Of a DNA stretch of 39,864 bases, positions 26,478 through 34,803 are shown piece after piece (position 1 is the stretch's first letter; each line of letters begins with the position of its first letter). Made by a program: the position numbers and the translations under genes. The notes under the pieces are model-generated. The model did not search any database and was not told where the DNA came from. It saw only the letters and a program-made list of their open reading frames with translations. Where the stretch lies: IMG/VR virus record IMGVR_UViG_3300048921_000352, positions 1-39,864 of that record; one strand, 5' to 3'. The stretch comes from a virus.

Positions 26478-26500
26478 TAAAGGTCTTGGTCTTGCTTTTT

Positions 26501-27295
26501 ATGTCTACACCCATCATCCCTTGGATGGGCGGCAAACGCCGCCTGGCCGACCGCCTACTTCCGCTTTTTCCGCCACACGAATGCTACCTTGAAGTGTTTG
26601 CCGGCGGCGCCGCGCTCTACTTCATGAAGCCCCAGCCATCTCCAGTCGAAGTCCTCAACGACATCAATGGCGACCTGGTCACGCTTTACCGCGTCGTGCA
26701 GAACCACCTCGAAGAGTTCGTGCGCCAGTTCAAATGGGCGCTCAGCTCGCGACAAGTGTTCGAATGGCAGAAAATGACCCGCCCCGAAACACTCACCGAC
26801 ATCCAGCGCGCCGCCCGATTCTTCTACCTGCAGCACCATGCCTTCGCCGGCAGGGTCTCGGGGCAGACGTTCGGCACGGCAACGACTGCTCCGGCCATCA
26901 ACCTGCTGCGGATTGAGGAAAACCTCTCAGCTGCGTGGCAGCGCCTGTCCGGCACTTACGTCGAAAACCTCCCCTGGCTTGAATGTGCAGAACGCTACGA
27001 CCGTGCTCACACCTTCCATTACATGGATCCGCCTTACTGGCAGACCGCTGGCTACGGTGTGGACTTTCCGTTCGAGAACTACGAGCGGATGGCCGACTTC
27101 ATGCGCCACTGCAAAGGCAAAGTGATGGTCAGCATCAACGATCATCCCGACATCCGCAGCGTGTTCGAAGGCTTCCACTTTGAGACTCTGGACATCCGCT
27201 ACACCACAGCCAATCAGCGGCAGGGGAAAGCCGAAGTGAGTGGCGAGCTGGTGATCATGAACTGGGAACCGGCAGCGTTGGGTGGGTTGTTCTGA
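26501..27295 (+). CDS. DNA adenine methylase (D12 class)
   Basis: This 264-residue protein matches the D12-class N6-adenine methyltransferases (Dam-like). It has the N-terminal PWMGGKRRLADRLLPLFP, the S-adenosylmethionine-binding FAGGAALYF, NDINGDLVTLYRVVQ and the catalytic DPPY at residues 176-179. Phages use such enzymes to mark their DNA against host restriction or to change regulation. The ATG at 26501 gives the usual MSTPIIPWMGGKRR start. No strong ribosome site is seen, and a TTG at 26486 cannot be excluded. A LexA box lies just upstream, an uncommon setting for this enzyme. Confidence 0.9.
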   Translation: MSTPIIPWMGGKRRLADRLLPLFPPHECYLEVFAGGAALYFMKPQPSPVEVLNDINGDLVTLYRVVQNHLEEFVRQFKWALSSRQVFEWQKMTRPETLTDIQRAARFFYLQHHAFAGRVSGQTFGTATTAPAINLLRIEENLSAAWQRLSGTYVENLPWLECAERYDRAHTFHYMDPPYWQTAGYGVDFPFENYERMADFMRHCKGKVMVSINDHPDIRSVFEGFHFETLDIRYTTANQRQGKAEVSGELVIMNWEPAALGGLF

Positions 27296-27419: not shown

Positions 27420-27845
27420 ATGAGCTTTTCAATCCTAGGCCCTATGGTTGTGGCCGGTCGGAAATTACCTCTTTGCCTTTTTCGAGTGCCGGCAGGTTTT
27501 CCTTCGCCGGCAGCGGATCACATTGAAACCCACATCTCGCTCGACGAGGTGCTCAACATTCGTGCCCCGCATGTTTACCTCGTGAAAATTGCCGGAGAGA
27601 GCATGCAGGGGGCGGGTATCTTTGACGGCGATTTAGCAGTAGTGGATCGTTCACTGGAGCCGGCGCATGGGCATATTGTTGTTGCGCTGCTCAACAACGA
27701 CCCGCTTTGCAAGCGGCTGTGCATCCGTGGGAAAGAGGTCATCCTGCTGTCTGAAAACCCCAAGTACCCGCCGCGTTACGTCATGGAAGGCGATGAGCTG
27801 GCGATCTGGGGCGTGATCATTGGTAGCGTGCGCAGTCATGTCTAG
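27420..27845 (+). CDS. umuD: UmuD-type autoprotease subunit of DNA polymerase V
   Basis: This 141-residue S24-family protein lines up with UmuD (RulA in Pseudomonas). The self-cleavage site is Ala25-Gly26 in VPAGFPSP, the nucleophile is Ser61 in GESMQGAGI, and the general base is Lys98 in DPLCKRL; positions differ by one from those known for E. coli UmuD. RecA-bound single-stranded DNA would trigger cleavage, and the shortened form binds UmuC to make the mutagenic polymerase. A LexA box precedes it and umuC overlaps its end by eight bases. Confidence 0.93.
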   Translation: MSFSILGPMVVAGRKLPLCLFRVPAGFPSPAADHIETHISLDEVLNIRAPHVYLVKIAGESMQGAGIFDGDLAVVDRSLEPAHGHIVVALLNNDPLCKRLCIRGKEVILLSENPKYPPRYVMEGDELAIWGVIIGSVRSHV

Positions 27846-29115
27846 GCAGGTGCCGGTGTTTGGCCTGATCGATTGCAACAGCTTCTACGCCAGCTGCGAG
27901 CGGGTGTTCCGTCCTGACTTGGCAAAGGTCCCAATCGTTGTCTTATCGAATAACGACGGCTGCGTCATCGCCCGCAGTTACGACGCCAAGCCATACGTGA
28001 AAATGGGCGAGCCGTACTTCCAGATCAAACACAAGCTTAAGCAGCACGGCATCGTCCCGTTCTCCTCGAATTACGCGCTGTACGGTGACATGAGTGAGCG
28101 CGTCATGACGCTTATTGAGTCCATGGTGCCAGCAGTCGAGGTCTACAGCATCGACGAAGCGTTCGTCGATCTGACTGGCATCGACGTTCTAGATAGCCTC
28201 GGACGGCAGATCCGGAACCAGGTACTGAGGTGCGCCGGCATACCGGTGGGCGTGGGGATTGCTCACACCAAAACCCTGGCCAAGCTGGCCAACCATACGG
28301 CCAAACGCCTGCAGGCGCAGACCGGGGGCGTCGTCAATATTTGCGACCCAGCTAAGCGTGACTGGGTACTGCGAAATACCGACGTTTCAGAGGTGTGGGG
28401 TGTAGGGCGTCGAATGAAAGCGCATCTGGAGACTATGGGAATCAAGAGTGCGATGGATTTGGCAAAAGCGGACCCTTGGACACTGCGCAAAAACTTCAGT
28501 GTGGTGATCGAGAAGACGGCGCGCGAACTGGCCGGCACTCCCTGTCTGGAGCTAGATGAGCCCGATCCGCCGAAACAGGAGATCTGCTGCAGTCGAATGT
28601 TCGGCACCCGCCTGACGGAACTGGCACCGATAAAGGAAGCGGTGGCCACATACATGATGCGCGCCTCAGAAAAGCTCAGGGCGCAAAACTCTCTGTGCAA
28701 GAAAGTGCGCGTGAGCATTCGCACCGGCATGTTCAATCCGGAGGAGGCGAAGTACGCCAATGGTGTGGTGATCGATATGCCTTACCCCACGGATGACGTC
28801 CGGCTACTGACCAAGGCTGCAGTCGATGCGCTGGATCGGGTGTATCGCCCTGGTTTCAAGTACAGCAAGGCGGAGGTATTGCTGATGAACCTGTGTCAGC
28901 CAGGTGAATATACGGACGATCTGTTTGCGGCTTCTCAACCGACAGAGTCTACCAAGGTCATGGCTGTACTGGATCAGATCAACGAACGGTGGGGAAGGGG
29001 GACGCTTCGAGCAGCGAGCGTCCCTGGCAACCCAGAGTGGGCGATGCGGCGTGAAATGATGAGTAAGAGCTACACCACTCGCTTGGATCAATTGTGGACG
29101 GTCAACTGTAGGTAG
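27838..29115 (+). CDS. umuC: UmuC-type catalytic subunit of DNA polymerase V
   Basis: This 425-residue Y-family polymerase is full length (E. coli UmuC has 422 residues). It has the palm motif FGLIDCNSFYASCERVF with Asp12, and VYSIDEAFVDLTG with Asp106-Glu107 as catalytic acids. The thumb helix-hairpin-helix (DVSEVWGVGRRMKAHLETMG) and little-finger region follow. It bypasses lesions at the cost of mutations. The ATG at 27838 is used rather than 27820, since MSRQVPVFGLIDCN is the normal start. In Pseudomonas, rulB genes are known entry points for other elements, but this copy is intact. Confidence 0.94.
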   Translation: MSRQVPVFGLIDCNSFYASCERVFRPDLAKVPIVVLSNNDGCVIARSYDAKPYVKMGEPYFQIKHKLKQHGIVPFSSNYALYGDMSERVMTLIESMVPAVEVYSIDEAFVDLTGIDVLDSLGRQIRNQVLRCAGIPVGVGIAHTKTLAKLANHTAKRLQAQTGGVVNICDPAKRDWVLRNTDVSEVWGVGRRMKAHLETMGIKSAMDLAKADPWTLRKNFSVVIEKTARELAGTPCLELDEPDPPKQEICCSRMFGTRLTELAPIKEAVATYMMRASEKLRAQNSLCKKVRVSIRTGMFNPEEAKYANGVVIDMPYPTDDVRLLTKAAVDALDRVYRPGFKYSKAEVLLMNLCQPGEYTDDLFAASQPTESTKVMAVLDQINERWGRGTLRAASVPGNPEWAMRREMMSKSYTTRLDQLWTVNCR

Positions 29116-29147: not shown

Positions 29148-29360
29148 TCGCAAGCGGAAGCTGATGGCCAAGCTGACTGTGGCTAAGCATTAGCGCTTAC
29201 GTAACACAGCGAACTGCTTGTAGGCAAAAAGATGCCTGCCCTTGGGACATTTCGGAGACGCCAGCATCGACGCTTTGTCGTTTTAAGACACTTGCGATGG
29301 GATGACGTGGGGGATGTGGGTATGATACAGCCCGGACTGATCTCCCAGAGCACGGTCGAA

Positions 29361-29771
29361 ATGGACAGGTTGACTGCCGAAAAACGCAGTTGGCTCATGA
29401 GCCGCGTCAAAGCAAAGAATACTCAGCCGGAGCTCGTTGTTAGGCGGCTGATTTTCGGCATGGGTTATCGCTATCGCCTGCATGCTAAGCACCTGGCTGG
29501 CCATCCTGACCTGACTTTTCCAGGTCGGAAGAAAGCGATTTTTGTCAACGGCTGCTTTTGGCATGGGCACGTTGGCTGCCGCTACGGGCGGCTACCCAAA
29601 ACGCGCGTAGAGTTCTGGTTGGCTAAAATTGAGCGGAACCAGGCGCGAGACAAAGAAAATATTGCATCGCTCGAAGCCAACGGTTGGCGTGTGCTAACAG
29701 TCTGGCAATGCGAGTTGAAATTTATCGATTTATTGGCGGCTAGACTAAATGAATTCATCGAACACGATTAA
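29361..29771 (+). CDS. vsr: Very short patch repair endonuclease (Vsr family)
   Basis: This protein of 136 residues starts at the ATG at 29361 (MDRLTAEKRSWLMSRVKAKN). Vsr family features are SRVKAKNTQPELVVRRLIFG, YRYRLHAKHLAGHPDLTF, KAIFVNGCFWHGHVGCRYGR, and the C-terminal ANGWRVLTVWQCEL. Such enzymes nick T:G mismatches left when 5-methylcytosine deaminates, so they travel with cytosine-5 methyltransferases, here the next gene (23-base overlap). A longer reading from 29232 adds residues with no family support. No strong ribosome site is seen. Confidence 0.93.
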   Translation: MDRLTAEKRSWLMSRVKAKNTQPELVVRRLIFGMGYRYRLHAKHLAGHPDLTFPGRKKAIFVNGCFWHGHVGCRYGRLPKTRVEFWLAKIERNQARDKENIASLEANGWRVLTVWQCELKFIDLLAARLNEFIEHD

Positions 29772-31032
29772 GACACGACCTATTGGCATCGATCTATTTG
29801 CAGGTGCTGGCGGGATGTCCCTCGGTTTCGAGCAAGCCGGGTTCGACGTAGCTGCAGCGGTCGAAATTGATCCGGTTCACTGTGCGACGCACGAATACAA
29901 TTTCCCAAACTGCAAAACCATTTGCGCAAGCGTTACCGACGTGAGCGGAATTGAAATCCGTCGTCTCGCAGGTTTAGGGGATAAGGAAATCGACGTCGTA
30001 TTTGGCGGTGCCCCATGCCAAGGTTTCTCGATGATCGGCAAACGTGCACTGGACGACCCAAGAAATCAGCTTGTTTTCCATTACGTCAGAATCGTCGAAG
30101 AGCTGCAGCCGAAATATTGTGTATTCGAGAATGTAAAAGGACTGACCCTTGGAAAACATTCCGAATTTCTGAAAGAGTTGATCGCTGCCCTCGATGAGGC
30201 GGGCTATGACGTGGTTCTTCCATATCAAGTGCTGAATGCCGCACATTACGGCGTGCCCCAGGATCGCAAACGGCTCTTTTTGATGGGGACGCGACGTGGG
30301 CTCAAAGCTCCAGAATATCCGACTCCTCTAGAATATGGAGTAACGGTGCAGGAAGCGATTGGTGATTTGCCCGACGCGAATAGCTTCGGAGAGCTGTTAG
30401 CTAGCGATGCAGTCAGGGCAAAATGGACGACAGACTCTGCATATGCTCAACGACTCCGTGACCTTCAAGCAGATCCGAGCGACTTTAGTTATAAACGAAT
30501 CTTTGACCGCGATCTCCTGACCTCTAGCCTACGGACAGAGCATACTGCATTGTCACAAGAGCGCTTCATGGCTACAGAACACGGTAAAACCGAATCTGTT
30601 AGCCGTTTTCGAAAGCTCCCACCTGATGGCCTCTGCAATACTCTTCGTGCAGGGACGGACAGTGCCCGCGGCGCCTTTACCTCACCTAGACCGATACACC
30701 CTTACCTGCCACGTGTTATCACCGTTCGGGAAGCAGCTAGATTGCACTCGTTCCCGGACTGGTTTCGTTTCCACGCAACCAAATGGCATGGCTTTCGTCA
30801 AATAGGCAACAGCGTTCCACCATTGCTAGGCCGCGCAATCGCCTCATCGATAATATCTGCGCTTGGTGTAAAACCTATAAAACCCACAAGGAGCCTTGAG
30901 CAAGGTTCAAACACGCTTCTCGGTTTAGATATGGGTTCGGCAGCCCGATACTTCGATGTGCCTCGCGATACAATCGCGCAGCGGACACGAAAGAATAATG
31001 TCCCCCTTAGTTTGGAAGAATCTGATGCTTAA
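29749..31032 (+). CDS. DNA cytosine-5 methyltransferase
   Basis: This 427-residue protein has all main C5-methyltransferase motifs: motif I DLFAGAGGMSLGF, motif IV GGAPCQGFS with the catalytic Cys90, motif VI FENVKG (residues 126-131), motif VIII QDRKRLFLMG (171-180) and motif X RQIGNSVPP near residue 350. The target-recognition part lies between about 200 and 320. After motif X a C-terminal extension (MGSAARYFDVPRDTIAQRTR) looks like a helix-turn-helix, perhaps for self-regulation. It overlaps vsr upstream and the next gene by eight bases, so it is the centre of a three-gene restriction-modification operon. Confidence 0.94.
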   Translation: MNSSNTIKTRPIGIDLFAGAGGMSLGFEQAGFDVAAAVEIDPVHCATHEYNFPNCKTICASVTDVSGIEIRRLAGLGDKEIDVVFGGAPCQGFSMIGKRALDDPRNQLVFHYVRIVEELQPKYCVFENVKGLTLGKHSEFLKELIAALDEAGYDVVLPYQVLNAAHYGVPQDRKRLFLMGTRRGLKAPEYPTPLEYGVTVQEAIGDLPDANSFGELLASDAVRAKWTTDSAYAQRLRDLQADPSDFSYKRIFDRDLLTSSLRTEHTALSQERFMATEHGKTESVSRFRKLPPDGLCNTLRAGTDSARGAFTSPRPIHPYLPRVITVREAARLHSFPDWFRFHATKWHGFRQIGNSVPPLLGRAIASSIISALGVKPIKPTRSLEQGSNTLLGLDMGSAARYFDVPRDTIAQRTRKNNVPLSLEESDA

Positions 31033-31834
31033 GGAAAAGGCACCACAGACAAACCGCTACAAGGCAATTATCGCCAGGATATTTGAAAATCATTACACTC
31101 CAGAAATTAGAGAGTTTGAGTTTTCGCGCGCAGAAATAATAGACATTGCTGCTGATCTAGGTATAGCTTTGCCAAAAAACATCGGGGATATAATTTACTC
31201 CTTTCGCTACCGCTACGAATTGCCAGAGTCTATTCTTGCGACCGCTGCAAGAGATATGGAGTGGATTATCAAGGGTTCCGGCACTGCCTTGTATCGGTTC
31301 AAGCAAGTCAAACTTAACCGGATCATACCTAGGGAAGAGTTGATAACGGTAAAGGTGCCAGATTCAACACCAGAAATCATAGGCGCATATGCGTTAAGCG
31401 ACGAGCAAGCGCTTCTAGCTAAGGTTAGATATAATCGCTTGATCGATATATTTCTCGGCATCACTGCGTATTCCTTGCAAAATCATCTTCGCACCCATTT
31501 GAAAGCCGTAGGTCAAATTGAAATCGACGAAGTGTATGTAGGTGTTGATAAGCATGGGCGCCAGTTTGTCGTTCCAGTACAAGCGAAAGGTGGTACTGAT
31601 AAACATGGAGTAGTGCAAACTGACCAGGACATTGCTTACTGTCAGAGCAAGTTTCCCGATTTGCTTTGTAGAGCTGTGTCTGTTCAGTTTATGACAAATG
31701 GTAGAATTGCCATGTTTGAACTGTTGGTTCAAGACGACGAAATTAAGGTTGTTGAAGAGCGCCACTATCAGCTTGTGGCCGCCTCTACAATTACTAATGA
31801 TGATTTACGCATTTACTCTTTGCATAGCGATTAA
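31025..31834 (+). CDS. Probable restriction endonuclease, PD-(D/E)XK-like, unrecognised family
   Basis: This protein of 269 residues starts at the ATG at 31025, with GGAAG six bases upstream, overlapping the methyltransferase end. I recognise no named family. Near residues 166-190 it reads IEIDEVYVGVDKHGRQ, then FVVPVQAKGG. An acidic residue (Asp168 or Glu169) followed by Gln186-x-Lys188 fits the Mrr-like D...QxK variant of the PD-(D/E)XK nuclease core. A basic helix (LQNHLRTHLKAVG) precedes it. The N-terminal 100 residues are helical and could hold DNA recognition. Together with a C5 methyltransferase and Vsr, a type II restriction enzyme is the simplest reading. Its site is unknown. Confidence 0.6.
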   Translation: MLKEKAPQTNRYKAIIARIFENHYTPEIREFEFSRAEIIDIAADLGIALPKNIGDIIYSFRYRYELPESILATAARDMEWIIKGSGTALYRFKQVKLNRIIPREELITVKVPDSTPEIIGAYALSDEQALLAKVRYNRLIDIFLGITAYSLQNHLRTHLKAVGQIEIDEVYVGVDKHGRQFVVPVQAKGGTDKHGVVQTDQDIAYCQSKFPDLLCRAVSVQFMTNGRIAMFELLVQDDEIKVVEERHYQLVAASTITNDDLRIYSLHSD

Positions 31835-32470
31835 ACACTTTGCACTTCACTGTGGGAGGGGAAAATCCCCCCCCCACACAGGTAATTGCATGGAGCGCAA
31901 TGGCCTCATCCGCTCTACGACGAGCCCCTACCGGAACGCAGCAGTCTCTGAACGACGCATCCTCTAAAACGCTTCCTTTCGGCCATACCCGATAAATCTC
32001 CCGCTGGTGCTGCTGGCATTTTTCTTCTGGTTTTATTTTTGACCTTCCTAATAGATCAAAACAAACAGGCTTGCGCAAGCTTTCTTAATTCATGGTCCCG
32101 CCACTGACTTCCCAGACGAATTCGAATGATATTTACTGGCAATTTTTTATCTATCATATGGGCGGAGGTTAGTCAGCGAGGGCCATTCAACGGCATCTAC
32201 AATATCAGGCGACAAATCGATTGCAGTCATTTATATGTCCCCCCTAAAATCGAACCAGCAGTTGTTCGAGGCATTTAGAAAGTTTTTGGGGGGGGATTTA
32301 ACACTGTCGCAAAGCAACGAAAACCATTGCATCCCCCCCCCCCGCCACCACTATCAACTTTCCCCTCGGGAGATTAATGCAAATCAAGCTCAAAAAAGAT
32401 TACATCTACCAGTTCTCTCATAAAGTTAACGGATGCTACTTCCGTGATGCTACGCAATACTATTACGGCG
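31835..32470. other. AT-rich intergenic region between converging operons, with G/C homopolymers
   Basis: This stretch of 636 bases lies between the end of the restriction operon and the end of the minus-strand ATPase gene. It holds homopolymer runs: nine Cs at 31867-31875, eight Gs at 32288-32295 and eleven Cs at 32333-32343. AAATCCCCCCCC at 31863-31874 is the exact reverse complement of GGGGGGGGATTT at 32288-32299. Several short frames occur but none is convincing; two tiny coupled minus-strand frames are listed separately. It looks like a decayed insertion scar or a variable region. Confidence 0.5.
32056..32230 (-). CDS. Two tiny overlapping minus-strand frames, uncertain
   Basis: On the minus strand an ATG at 32230 preceded by GGGGGGA at a good distance opens a 27-residue frame (MTAIDLSPDIVDAVEWPSLT, then NLRPYDR) ending at 32147. 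A second ATG at 32157 overlaps its end and opens a 33-residue frame (MIDKKLPVNIIRIRLGSQWR, then DHELRKLAQACLF) ending at 32056. The first ends like the N terminus of ParB-like or modification-methylase proteins ('LRPYxRN'), so it could be a truncated remnant. Both are too short to judge; the ribosome site is the only solid sign. Confidence 0.22.
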
Positions 32471-34081
32471 TTAGCCGGACAAATACTCGAGCACAGCCGC
32501 GACCGCCGCATTGCGCATCCTACGCGCTCTTTTATCCCCTACGTAATTCGCTTCTTTAAGCTTTGCCTCTGTTGCATTAAGAACGTCCCGAACAGTGCTA
32601 AGACCAAGCTCAGTCAGCTTCTCCAACTGCCATACAGTCAAATCGAGTACGTTGGCCGGTCTATCCAATTGGGTATTAAGCGCTAAAGCCATGCCCTCAT
32701 CAGTGATAAGCCCTGCCTGATCGGTTAGTTTTTTATACGACTGATGATTTGAACCGTATTCGGTCATTCTTTTTGGAGTCAGTTCTTTTGCAATCTCAAA
32801 CGCCGAACTTGTAGGTGTTGACTCAAGTGCAAAAAGGCAGCCGAGATTAATTATGTATCGCTTTCCAATTTCGGCACGACTCGCTTTGATTCCGACTGCG
32901 TGCTCAATTACAATTCCCGTATATGCCAGGACTCGCAAAGCCTCTTTAATAAGCTCTGGCGCATCTCTATGAATCCAAAAAAAAGCTGAAGTTGCCTTGT
33001 CGGACGAAAGATATTGGTCATTCTTACCCTTAATATCAGGAAGAACTTGAGATTCAATAAATTCTCTACCCCAGTCTATCAAGGCTTTATGCCCAGAGTA
33101 TTTTTCCGACAAAGTGGAGTGCTCTGCCCAAATTTCGGTCCTGTAGAACTCTCTGATCGTTTCATTTACTTGTTGAGAATTTATTTTTGGGCACTGAGCT
33201 ATAGTTTTTAGTAACAGCCTAGGGTTGCCAGTCGCCGCGTAAGCCAGTGTGGAGAAATTTTTCCCGTACTGGGCAATTTGCGAAAGTATATTACTGTCCG
33301 CTTGTTTTTGTACAATCTCCCGCATGTTTTCCACATAGTCGGCAGATAAAATATCCCGATCAATAGTAAGCATCGTAGCGTCATGAACTGGCTGAAAAGT
33401 CTCGCCGAACGTTGTTACGCCTGGATAGACTGCAGCATTACAAGTAATACAATGTGATCGTAAATCTCTAAAAATTGTAAAAAATTGACGTTGTTGCTCT
33501 GGCAAAAAAATATGCGCAGCTTCATCAAAAAGAAGGGCAAATCTAGAAATGTTAAGTTCATCACCCAAATCTTCCAGTGCTTCCTTAAAGTCATCGATAC
33601 TGGGAAGACCATCGGCATCTACAGCTATTTGTGGTGTTTTCCAAGACGCTTCATAAGCTTCAGCAATTTCTTCAACCTTTGTACGCTCTATCGACGACGT
33701 CACTGCTCCCCCAGCAAGCAAGCCAATGCTTTTAGGAATTCCGCCGAGAAGGCCAGCCTTAGTCAAGCTTCTCATGACGGTAGAGCAAATTCTTGCCAAC
33801 ATCCAATGCTTGAACTGGTCTGGATCAGACGATTGGAGCAGTGAGCTTCTCACGAAGCTAATATAAACGGGAAACACACGATCTTGTTCGAACGCATCCA
33901 TGAGTTCTTTTTGGGCAACTCGAAGTAGAAATGACTTTCCTACCCCCCGACTCCCAACTAGCACGACAGGATTTCTATTTTTCAGAGCATCAACGACTTG
34001 TCTGTCTTTTGATGTTTCAACAAAGTAGTCAAGGACCTCGTCCGGCCTAATATCCTCGGTCCTAAAGAAAAAATCTGCCAT
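32471..34081 (-). CDS. P-loop ATPase of ORC/STAND type with C-terminal helix-hairpin-helix
   Basis: This 536-residue protein has an N-terminal ATPase: Walker A GSRGVGKS (residues 43-50), Walker B FALLFDEAA with Asp186-Glu187, and ATGNPRLLLKTI (residues 283-294), the GNPR turn typical of Cdc6/ORC-like and STAND ATPases. A long helical middle follows. The last 60 residues (LTVWQLEKLTELGLSTVRDV onward) look like the helix-hairpin-helix of the RNA polymerase alpha C-terminal domain, suggesting DNA or protein docking. GGAGG precedes the start inside the end of the upstream gene, so the two are translated together. I do not recognise a named family. An ATP-driven sensor or switch for its HEPN-like partner is the best inference. 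Confidence 0.8.
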   Translation of the reverse strand: MADFFFRTEDIRPDEVLDYFVETSKDRQVVDALKNRNPVVLVGSRGVGKSFLLRVAQKELMDAFEQDRVFPVYISFVRSSLLQSSDPDQFKHWMLARICSTVMRSLTKAGLLGGIPKSIGLLAGGAVTSSIERTKVEEIAEAYEASWKTPQIAVDADGLPSIDDFKEALEDLGDELNISRFALLFDEAAHIFLPEQQRQFFTIFRDLRSHCITCNAAVYPGVTTFGETFQPVHDATMLTIDRDILSADYVENMREIVQKQADSNILSQIAQYGKNFSTLAYAATGNPRLLLKTIAQCPKINSQQVNETIREFYRTEIWAEHSTLSEKYSGHKALIDWGREFIESQVLPDIKGKNDQYLSSDKATSAFFWIHRDAPELIKEALRVLAYTGIVIEHAVGIKASRAEIGKRYIINLGCLFALESTPTSSAFEIAKELTPKRMTEYGSNHQSYKKLTDQAGLITDEGMALALNTQLDRPANVLDLTVWQLEKLTELGLSTVRDVLNATEAKLKEANYVGDKRARRMRNAAVAAVLEYLSG

Positions 34082-34086
34082 GATTT

Positions 34087-34803
34087 TTAAGCCTCCGTTG
34101 GTTGTGCGAAAATTTCTTGAACTGGTGCTAAGTCGCCTATTACATCCGTAATGATAGGTTCCATTCGATCCAGCGCTTCCTTTGTAACGTAATTCAGATA
34201 GCGCGCTGAAAAAGCAAAAACAATTGTCAGTCGCATTGTTTTGGCTTTGTTATGCCAAGAAGAGAACGCTTCTAGCTGGAATGCGATATCTGAGGGAAGT
34301 ACCGCATGAGTACCAGCATTCCCGTGAACAAATTGTGAGCACTCACGGTAGACCGCTTCTGCGATTGCTAGATACTGCTTCCCGCAATCCGAGAAGCCTG
34401 GATTGAAGGCGCGGATGAAGTTTGTTGCAAAAACTCCATTATTCGCATCCTTCAAAGCACTCCAGTTTATATCCTTCGAATCCTTTGCCCACATTCGATA
34501 ATCGATTTCATGTGCGGAGAAGTGCACTGTGGCAAGCATGAGCTCGAAAAAAAGTCTGAGCCCACCAAAAGCATGCCTATATTGACCGCTGGCCAAGGCA
34601 AAAAGAGCAAATTGGTATTCTTTTACCGCAGAATCGAGAACAGCCGCTTCTGGACGCCCCGCAATGGCCATTTTTAAAGCGTCGAAATCCATTAAATAAT
34701 TATGGGAGGTAATCAACGCCTCTAGCCCATTTGCTTGCACCATCTCTGCCAGCACGTTGTCCGAATTCCTTATAAGAGTTCGATAATGTTCAAGTACATC
34801 CAT
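34087..34803 (-). CDS. HEPN-like helical protein, partner of the ATPase
   Basis: This 238-residue, almost fully helical protein is the first gene of a two-gene minus-strand operon. In its middle it reads YRECSQFVHGN: Arg153, six residues, His160, which fits the R-x4-6-H active site of HEPN RNases. The preceding helices (RHAFGGLRLFFELMLATVHF) and the acidic N-terminal helices are compatible with the HEPN bundle. A strong AAGGAAG ribosome site lies before the ATG at 34803. The ATPase starts five bases after its stop. HEPN toxins paired with NTPases are common in abortive infection and toxin-antitoxin loci, but I know no named system with this exact pair. Assignment to HEPN is by motif and shape only. 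Confidence 0.6.
   Translation of the reverse strand: MDVLEHYRTLIRNSDNVLAEMVQANGLEALITSHNYLMDFDALKMAIAGRPEAAVLDSAVKEYQFALFALASGQYRHAFGGLRLFFELMLATVHFSAHEIDYRMWAKDSKDINWSALKDANNGVFATNFIRAFNPGFSDCGKQYLAIAEAVYRECSQFVHGNAGTHAVLPSDIAFQLEAFSSWHNKAKTMRLTIVFAFSARYLNYVTKEALDRMEPIITDVIGDLAPVQEIFAQPTEA

Follow-up and report, generated by a model that had tools for sequence, protein, structure and literature searches.

The analysed window, a virus record of 39,864 bp, carries a two-gene operon coding for a probable HEPN-fold protein and an ORC/Cdc6-STAND-type ATPase, and we consider it probable that these genes form a self-contained, prophage-encoded anti-phage module in which a HEPN RNase would be released by an infection-sensing ATPase and would act by abortive infection. 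The two genes are strictly linked, show purifying selection and recur in defence-type neighbourhoods, each protein has a recognisable fold class, and the ATPase family is paired repeatedly with two families of HEPN protein. Few immune effectors are as common as HEPN RNases, and few immune sensors as common as ORC/STAND ATPases; the combination seen here apparently has not been described as a system, while resembling the already known arrangement of a HEPN RNase under the control of an NTPase sensor.

The operon and its setting

The operon lies on the minus strand and consists of a short ORF followed by a longer one (Table 1), with the ribosome-binding site of the ATPase gene falling within the 3' end of the HEPN gene; in orthologues the spacing ranges from 2 to 10 nt, or the two genes overlap by 1 to 4 nt. 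The coordinates, strand and exact 5-nt stop-to-start spacing reported in an earlier note, made from the sequence alone, were all reproduced, as were the R-x6-H motif it had read in the first protein (found in YRECSQFVHG) and the Walker A, Walker B, GNPR and C-terminal helix-hairpin-helix elements it had named in the second. Its description of a low-GC setting beside vsr, a methyltransferase and a prophage also holds, with a phage structural region of 60% GC followed by a low-GC cargo region in which the pair itself has a GC content of 44%, and with strong profile scores for the neighbouring genes (Vsr 1.9e-28, DNA_methylase 8.7e-72 and REase_II 3.3e-124).

Table 1. Features of the HEPN–ATPase operon and its neighbours, in window coordinates.
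Feature	Coordinates	Strand	Evidence or remark
HEPN-fold protein, 238 aa, predicted RNase effector	34087..34803	-	Fold, 14/14 conservation, purifying selection
E87, acidic residue in helix 2 (75-95), putative second HEPN active-site element	34543..34545	-	21/21 conserved
R153-x6-H160, putative HEPN catalytic motif (YRxxSxxVHG)	34324..34347	-	Both residues unchanged in 14/14 orthologues
Intergenic gap, 5 nt	34082..34086	-	Sequence
ORC/Cdc6-STAND-type AAA+ ATPase, 536 aa, predicted sensor/regulator	32471..34081	-	PF24389, Foldseek
Walker A, GSRGVGKS (residues 43-50; K49)	33932..33955	-	G43, S44, R45, G46, G48 and K49 invariant in 14/14
Walker B, LLFDE (183-187)	33521..33535	-	D186 and E187 invariant in 14/14
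GNPR, sensor-2-like (285-288)	33218..33229	-	G285-R288 invariant in 14/14
C-terminal helix-hairpin-helix, RNAP alpha-CTD-like (residues 483-535)	32477..32635	-	HHH_5 E 0.0011; RNA_pol_A_CTD E 0.017
Vsr endonuclease, 5mC methyltransferase and type II restriction enzyme (context only, outside the pair)	29232..31834	+	Profile matches

Judged from their sequences, both ORFs are real genes. Where synonymous sites are unsaturated, dN/dS is about 0.05–0.10 in the HEPN gene and about 0.05 in the ATPase gene, and the window and Pseudomonas viridiflava ATPases share 96% protein identity, yet 75% of synonymous sites have changed. Searches of the window pair for an RNA family and for a structured leader found none, and no promoter or terminator signals exceeded those of shuffled controls.

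The prophage cargo also includes UmuD/UmuC-like translesion polymerase genes at 27420–29115 (a 431-aa ORF matches the IMS family with E = 2e-34), and a D12-class DNA adenine methylase-like protein (PWMGGKRRLADRL...) is encoded at 26486–27295, as is likewise the case in the L026, L068 and L073 prophages. On the minus strand 3' of the ATPase gene, an 11-G run and a 9-C run some 45 bases off (32290–32345) form a tract that is possibly slippery or assembly-prone.

The first protein is probably a HEPN-fold RNase

The AlphaFold2 model of the first protein, built from a 13-sequence alignment from which one plasmid-record row was excluded, is all-helical (pLDDT 91.9, pTM 0.90) and contains a four-helix up-down bundle of two alpha-hairpins (helices 53–71, 75–95, 135–160 and 177–202). 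R153 and H160 are placed at the end of helix 135–160 and ahead of the loop 161–176, and an insert with short helices (96–134) lies between helices 2 and 3. In a survey of HEPN families, the Rx4-6H motif ends helix 3 before the 3–4 loop, an insert is found between helices 2 and 3, and helix 2 often has an acidic residue (PMC3710099). The Ex3[KR] form of this last element is absent from the window protein, which reads R83x3E87. The arginine and histidine picked out in the earlier note are kept by all 14 orthologues, and Y152, R153, S156, H160 and G161 do not vary between them at identities as low as 24%.

Comparison of the model with known structures using VIA, which re-aligns the top 1000 Foldseek matches, agrees with the original description of a helical, HEPN-like protein, as HEPN structures take the first four places among 990 aligned PDB chains, namely 2q00_B (PaREP1 HEPN, Z 10.6), 3o10_C (human sacsin HEPN, Z 9.9), 1ufb_A (Z 9.5) and 4nqf_B (Z 9.3), with Z-scores of about 10 being below the level which is unambiguous for helical bundles. 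The HEPN alignments span 119–128 residues, and the fifth match is an unrelated five-helix construct with a Z-score of 9.1. Because such Z-scores are not decisive alone, we rely on the VIA ranking together with the motif and the helix positions in predicting that the first protein is probably a HEPN-fold RNase. Counted against this assignment, besides the modest Z-scores, are the lack of any significant match, HEPN included, when Foldseek alone was used against the PDB and BFVD, and of any match to a named HEPN family in Pfam, PADLOC, NCBIfam, PDB sequences and profiles; the L023 homologue gave a sub-threshold match to DUF5677 (E = 0.22).

The second protein is an ORC/Cdc6-STAND ATPase

Profile and structural matches identify the second protein as an ORC/Cdc6-STAND AAA+ ATPase. 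It matches PF24389 (ORC-CDC6-like) with E = 3.8e-16, which exceeds the curated cut-off, and a Foldseek search with its model (pLDDT 80, pTM 0.73) found Cdc6/Orc1 (2qby_B, E = 3.8e-7) and RdrA (8hr8, E = 5.7e-6), with further matches to ORC subunits, plant and animal NLRs, BrxC and TnsC. We read residues 302–420 of the model, in which a group of helices precedes one further helix and two strands, as winged-helix-like, and the C-terminal helix-hairpin-helix likely contacts DNA; the only PDB sequence matches of the ATPase were to RNAP alpha chains (E = 0.02). Variability peaks at residues 101–140 and 421–480, which are candidate contact regions. Mean identity across orthologues is 46% for the ATPase compared to 30% for the HEPN protein, and while this conservation counts against the defence model in being unlike that of a sensor tracking fast-changing phage proteins, it suggests that what the ATPase reads may be conserved (DNA, for instance) and not a phage protein that evolves rapidly.

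Orthologous pairs and their neighbourhoods

Searches starting from either protein identified 13 further loci, making 14 with the window (four were reached through the ATPase query, with the first gene checked afterwards). The two genes, which the earlier note had proposed to work together, are paired wherever both could be examined, with the HEPN gene directly upstream of the ATPase gene at all 14 loci. None of the three results that the note had named as refuting its reading (a predicted structure other than a HEPN-type bundle, unconserved R153/H160, or no co-occurrence elsewhere) was obtained. The additional pairs were found on a viral contig (L001; 63 and 76% identity for the HEPN protein and ATPase, respectively) and a Planktothrix agardhii plasmid, in a linear plasmid island (L002; 28 and 42%), in P. 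viridiflava (L008), Caballeronia udeis (L009), Paraburkholderia and Trinickia (L010 and L011), in two additional proteobacterial genomes (L017 and L021), and on five further viral contigs (L023, L024/L027, L026, L028 and L029). Strong matches are rare (3/349 Burkholderiaceae, 2/398 Pseudomonadota, 1/399 Pseudomonas and 1/398 genomes of another order), and an ATPase profile recovered three true orthologues from the 349 Burkholderiaceae genomes (>800 bits), each accompanied by the HEPN gene, while the ATPase ranked fourth scored 245 bits. No strong HEPN match without an ATPase neighbour was found in the genomes searched, neither protein was found in the INPHARED phage genomes, and the E. coli genomes searched for the DNA of one homologue did not contain it. 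It should be noted that no empty insertion site could be demonstrated for the Paraburkholderia pair, as the synteny of the relative differs. Two other matches were not retained: L018, a weak match (E about 1e-5, 394 aa, with NGYIHG), was discarded for want of an adjacent ATPase gene, and L016 was judged spurious.

Defence-type genes adjoin the pair at 8 or more of the 14 loci (R-M, RADAR, Ssp, PARIS/OLD-like and other systems), and the defence-island setting first proposed for the window therefore recurs elsewhere. At L008 an XcyI-type restriction enzyme lies beside a putative DNA methylase, at L009 RdrA/RdrB-like genes adjoin the pair, at L017 AriA/OLD-like ATPases occur with a 5mC methyltransferase and a putative restriction gene, SspH is a neighbour at L021, and L028 has a 5mC methyltransferase and a DUF4928 restriction enzyme, with L029 alike by sequence. 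The Planktothrix cluster includes PAPS reductase, DUF4007, helicase, HATPase, DUF2779 and PLD-like genes. The L023 and L026 pairs are inside prophages, and no defence neighbours were visible at L010 and L011, whose position outside visible defence islands is counted against the defence model.

Type II R-M genes adjoin the pair in the window, L008, L028 and L029, L017 has the methyltransferase and putative restriction gene mentioned above, and some related operons described below (variant 3) are often headed by an N-MTase gene. These associations would suit a backup effector of the adjoining R-M system, firing when a phage blocks restriction as PrrC does with EcoprrI. We regard this as distinctly unlikely, as the systems concerned differ (Vsr/5mC and its restriction enzyme, XcyI, and DUF4928), and because the L010, L011 and L023 pairs occur without any R-M; such independent settings show that the HEPN–ATPase pair stands as a separate unit.

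The tight operon, with a small HEPN gene first and a larger ATPase gene second, and the presence of pairs on prophages and plasmids are also what might be expected of a toxin–antitoxin addiction module, in which a HEPN toxin neutralised by the ATPase would stabilise the prophage or island with no phage-specific trigger, and a HEPN (MAE_18760) and ParA/Soj ATPase dyad has been postulated to be such a system (PMC3710099). This explanation is unlikely given the repeated siting of pairs beside unrelated defence systems, the stand-alone chromosomal pairs (L010 and L011), and the full Walker A and B motifs and DNA-binding-type C terminus in all members, which go beyond the needs of a plain antitoxin. 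In PARIS, both genes are required for protection and the effector gene by itself is not toxic (PMC9122126).

The fold which the ATPase has in common with Cdc6/Orc1 and TnsC might instead point to mobile-element housekeeping, with an ORC-like ATPase serving replication, partition or lysogeny control and the HEPN protein a catalytically idle helper. We find this most improbable, since the pair occurs in unrelated settings (including chromosomal sites without phage genes and a linear plasmid island) and is usually missing from related elements, and no member of the clade departs from the catalytic-type R/H and acidic residues.

Two of these loci have further features. The operon directly after the Caballeronia udeis pair (L009, 13052–18210) is a divergent RADAR-like one, with partial matches to RdrA (E = 9e-20) and RdrB (E = 2e-24), and at L024/L027 (4696–8598) the pair is preceded by primase- and AlpA-like genes which, by eye, suggest a P4-like satellite carrier.

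Comparison with known systems

The earlier note knew of no system named so far that consists of precisely these two genes, and this agrees with PADLOC and NCBIfam, which have no model for a HEPN and ORC-type ATPase combination, and with the literature searched on HEPN proteins with ORC/Cdc6 ATPases (mostly open-access main text), in which this pair was not described, with an unnamed mention elsewhere being possible. RADAR is likewise a two-gene immune module, one pair (L009) sits beside a RADAR-like operon, and RdrA shares the ORC/STAND AAA+ fold (8hr8_F, Z 14.3 over 274 residues). However, the RADAR effector is the adenosine deaminase RdrB rather than a HEPN-fold protein, RdrA has about 850 aa compared to the 536 aa of the pair's ATPase with its helix-hairpin-helix end, the pair contains no deaminase, and neither protein matched the PADLOC RdrA/RdrB models.

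A HEPN RNase is also joined with an ORC/Cdc6-type AAA+ ATPase in the DUF499 BREX-related/Hma system, but there the HEPN domain, of Abi2/Swt1 type, shares one polypeptide with a large ATPase which works with a methyltransferase and helicase (PMC12839542), whereas the window pair has a separate HEPN gene of another HEPN family and neither helicase nor methyltransferase is obligatory; the window ATPase matched PF24389 instead of DUF499, and no helicase adjoins the pair in the window. The MAE_18760 dyad is similarly a two-gene HEPN and ATPase operon (PMC3710099), but with an ATPase of the SIMIBI/ParA class rather than an AAA+ ORC/Cdc6 ATPase. PrrC and RloC are ATPase-controlled HEPN RNases tied to R-M and DNA damage, respectively, but each is a single polypeptide with an ABC ATPase, and HEPN-MNT toxin–antitoxin systems need a minimal nucleotidyltransferase where the window pair has an AAA+ ATPase. 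The P-loop ATPases DS41_1_antiphage (NF053860), ATPase_Sll1717 (NF047389) and MADS mad8 resemble the second gene more distantly (E = 1e-8 to 1e-4), but the window ATPase scored 35 bits or less, far below the curated cut-offs of 75 (Sll1717) and 370 (DS41_1), and none of these models includes a window-type HEPN partner. DS names appear in the DefensePredictor paper, which reports several machine-learned systems (PMC13092281).

Proposed mechanism

By analogy with RADAR, PrrC/RloC and the HEPN-DUF499 fusions, we infer that sensing and switching fall to the ATPase, with the HEPN protein acting as the RNase. In an uninfected cell the HEPN endoribonuclease would be kept inactive, and the ATPase, with its winged-helix-like region and C-terminal helix-hairpin-helix, may associate with DNA. 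An infection cue, most likely phage DNA or a replication structure, or a protein on it, would be seen by the ATPase and cause an ATP-dependent rearrangement or oligomerisation that could release or template a HEPN dimer, which would then cut RNA and stop the infection abortively. Such pairs probably protect bacteria from other phages, and offer a compact two-gene system in which to study how infection is recognised by an ATPase of the origin-recognition type and how an RNase is activated by it.

A wider family of ORC-type ATPases with HEPN partners

Twenty more loci with related ATPases were identified, and each has an adjacent HEPN-like gene (20/20), such that a HEPN-like neighbour is found at 34/34 ATPase loci when the window clade (variant 1) is combined with variant 2 (n = 7; L047, L048 and L075–L079) and variant 3 (n = 13; L005, L006, L007, L050 and L066–L074), noting that L071/L072/L074 and L077/L079 are near-identical. 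In variant 2 a homologue of the window HEPN protein is encoded immediately upstream of the ATPase gene (hhalign 93%, E = 2.6e-7; HMM E = 1e-26 to 1e-32), and a zinc ribbon was seen in L047. Across variants 1 and 2, R83, E87, W105, D111, Y152, S156, H160 and R201 are invariant in 21/21 sequences; R153 is present in 17/21, and its loss in four of the seven variant 2 homologues is counted against the defence model. In variant 3, a different protein with RHx3H (13/13) is encoded immediately downstream, and that of L007 matches Pfam HEPN_RiboL-PSP with E = 0.0012, under the curated cut-off. As a profile–profile comparison found no sequence similarity between the window HEPN protein and these RiboL-PSP-like partners, we treat them as different HEPN families, and the recruitment of two unrelated sequences of one partner type strongly supports the partner slot being that of a HEPN effector.

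An unrooted FastTree phylogeny clusters variants 1 and 2 and places variant 3 separately, and the window pair is one clade within a broader superfamily of ORC-ATPase and HEPN modules. With slightly more doubt than confidence, we propose that this is an unnamed prophage- and plasmid-borne immune superfamily in which an ORC/Cdc6-type, DNA-associated ATPase would serve as a common sensor chassis for two or more HEPN RNases unrelated to each other (that of the window, encoded upstream, or the RiboL-PSP-like one, encoded downstream and sometimes with a DNA methyltransferase), such that the cutting of RNA may be permitted by an origin-recognition-like machine that perhaps reads the replication DNA of a phage. 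In such a family, one ATPase chassis would have differing HEPN RNases as its stable partners, for the most part in prophages. These 34 or more loci in three variants have no system model in PADLOC 2.0 or NCBIfam 20.

Six of the variant 3 loci (L005, L006 and L071–L074) have a three-gene MTase–ATPase–HEPN operon with a methyltransferase-like first gene of about 390–420 aa, which in L071 matches PADLOC MTase_II (E = 9.9e-81). At L078 (3908–4561), on a viral contig, the ATPase frame is broken (217 aa) and the upstream HEPN-like gene is intact. A more distant ATPase with a helix-hairpin-helix C terminus is encoded at L051 (3855–6226), and its 303-aa upstream partner, which ends in FSKFSKGVHSE, is perhaps of a further HEPN-like type.
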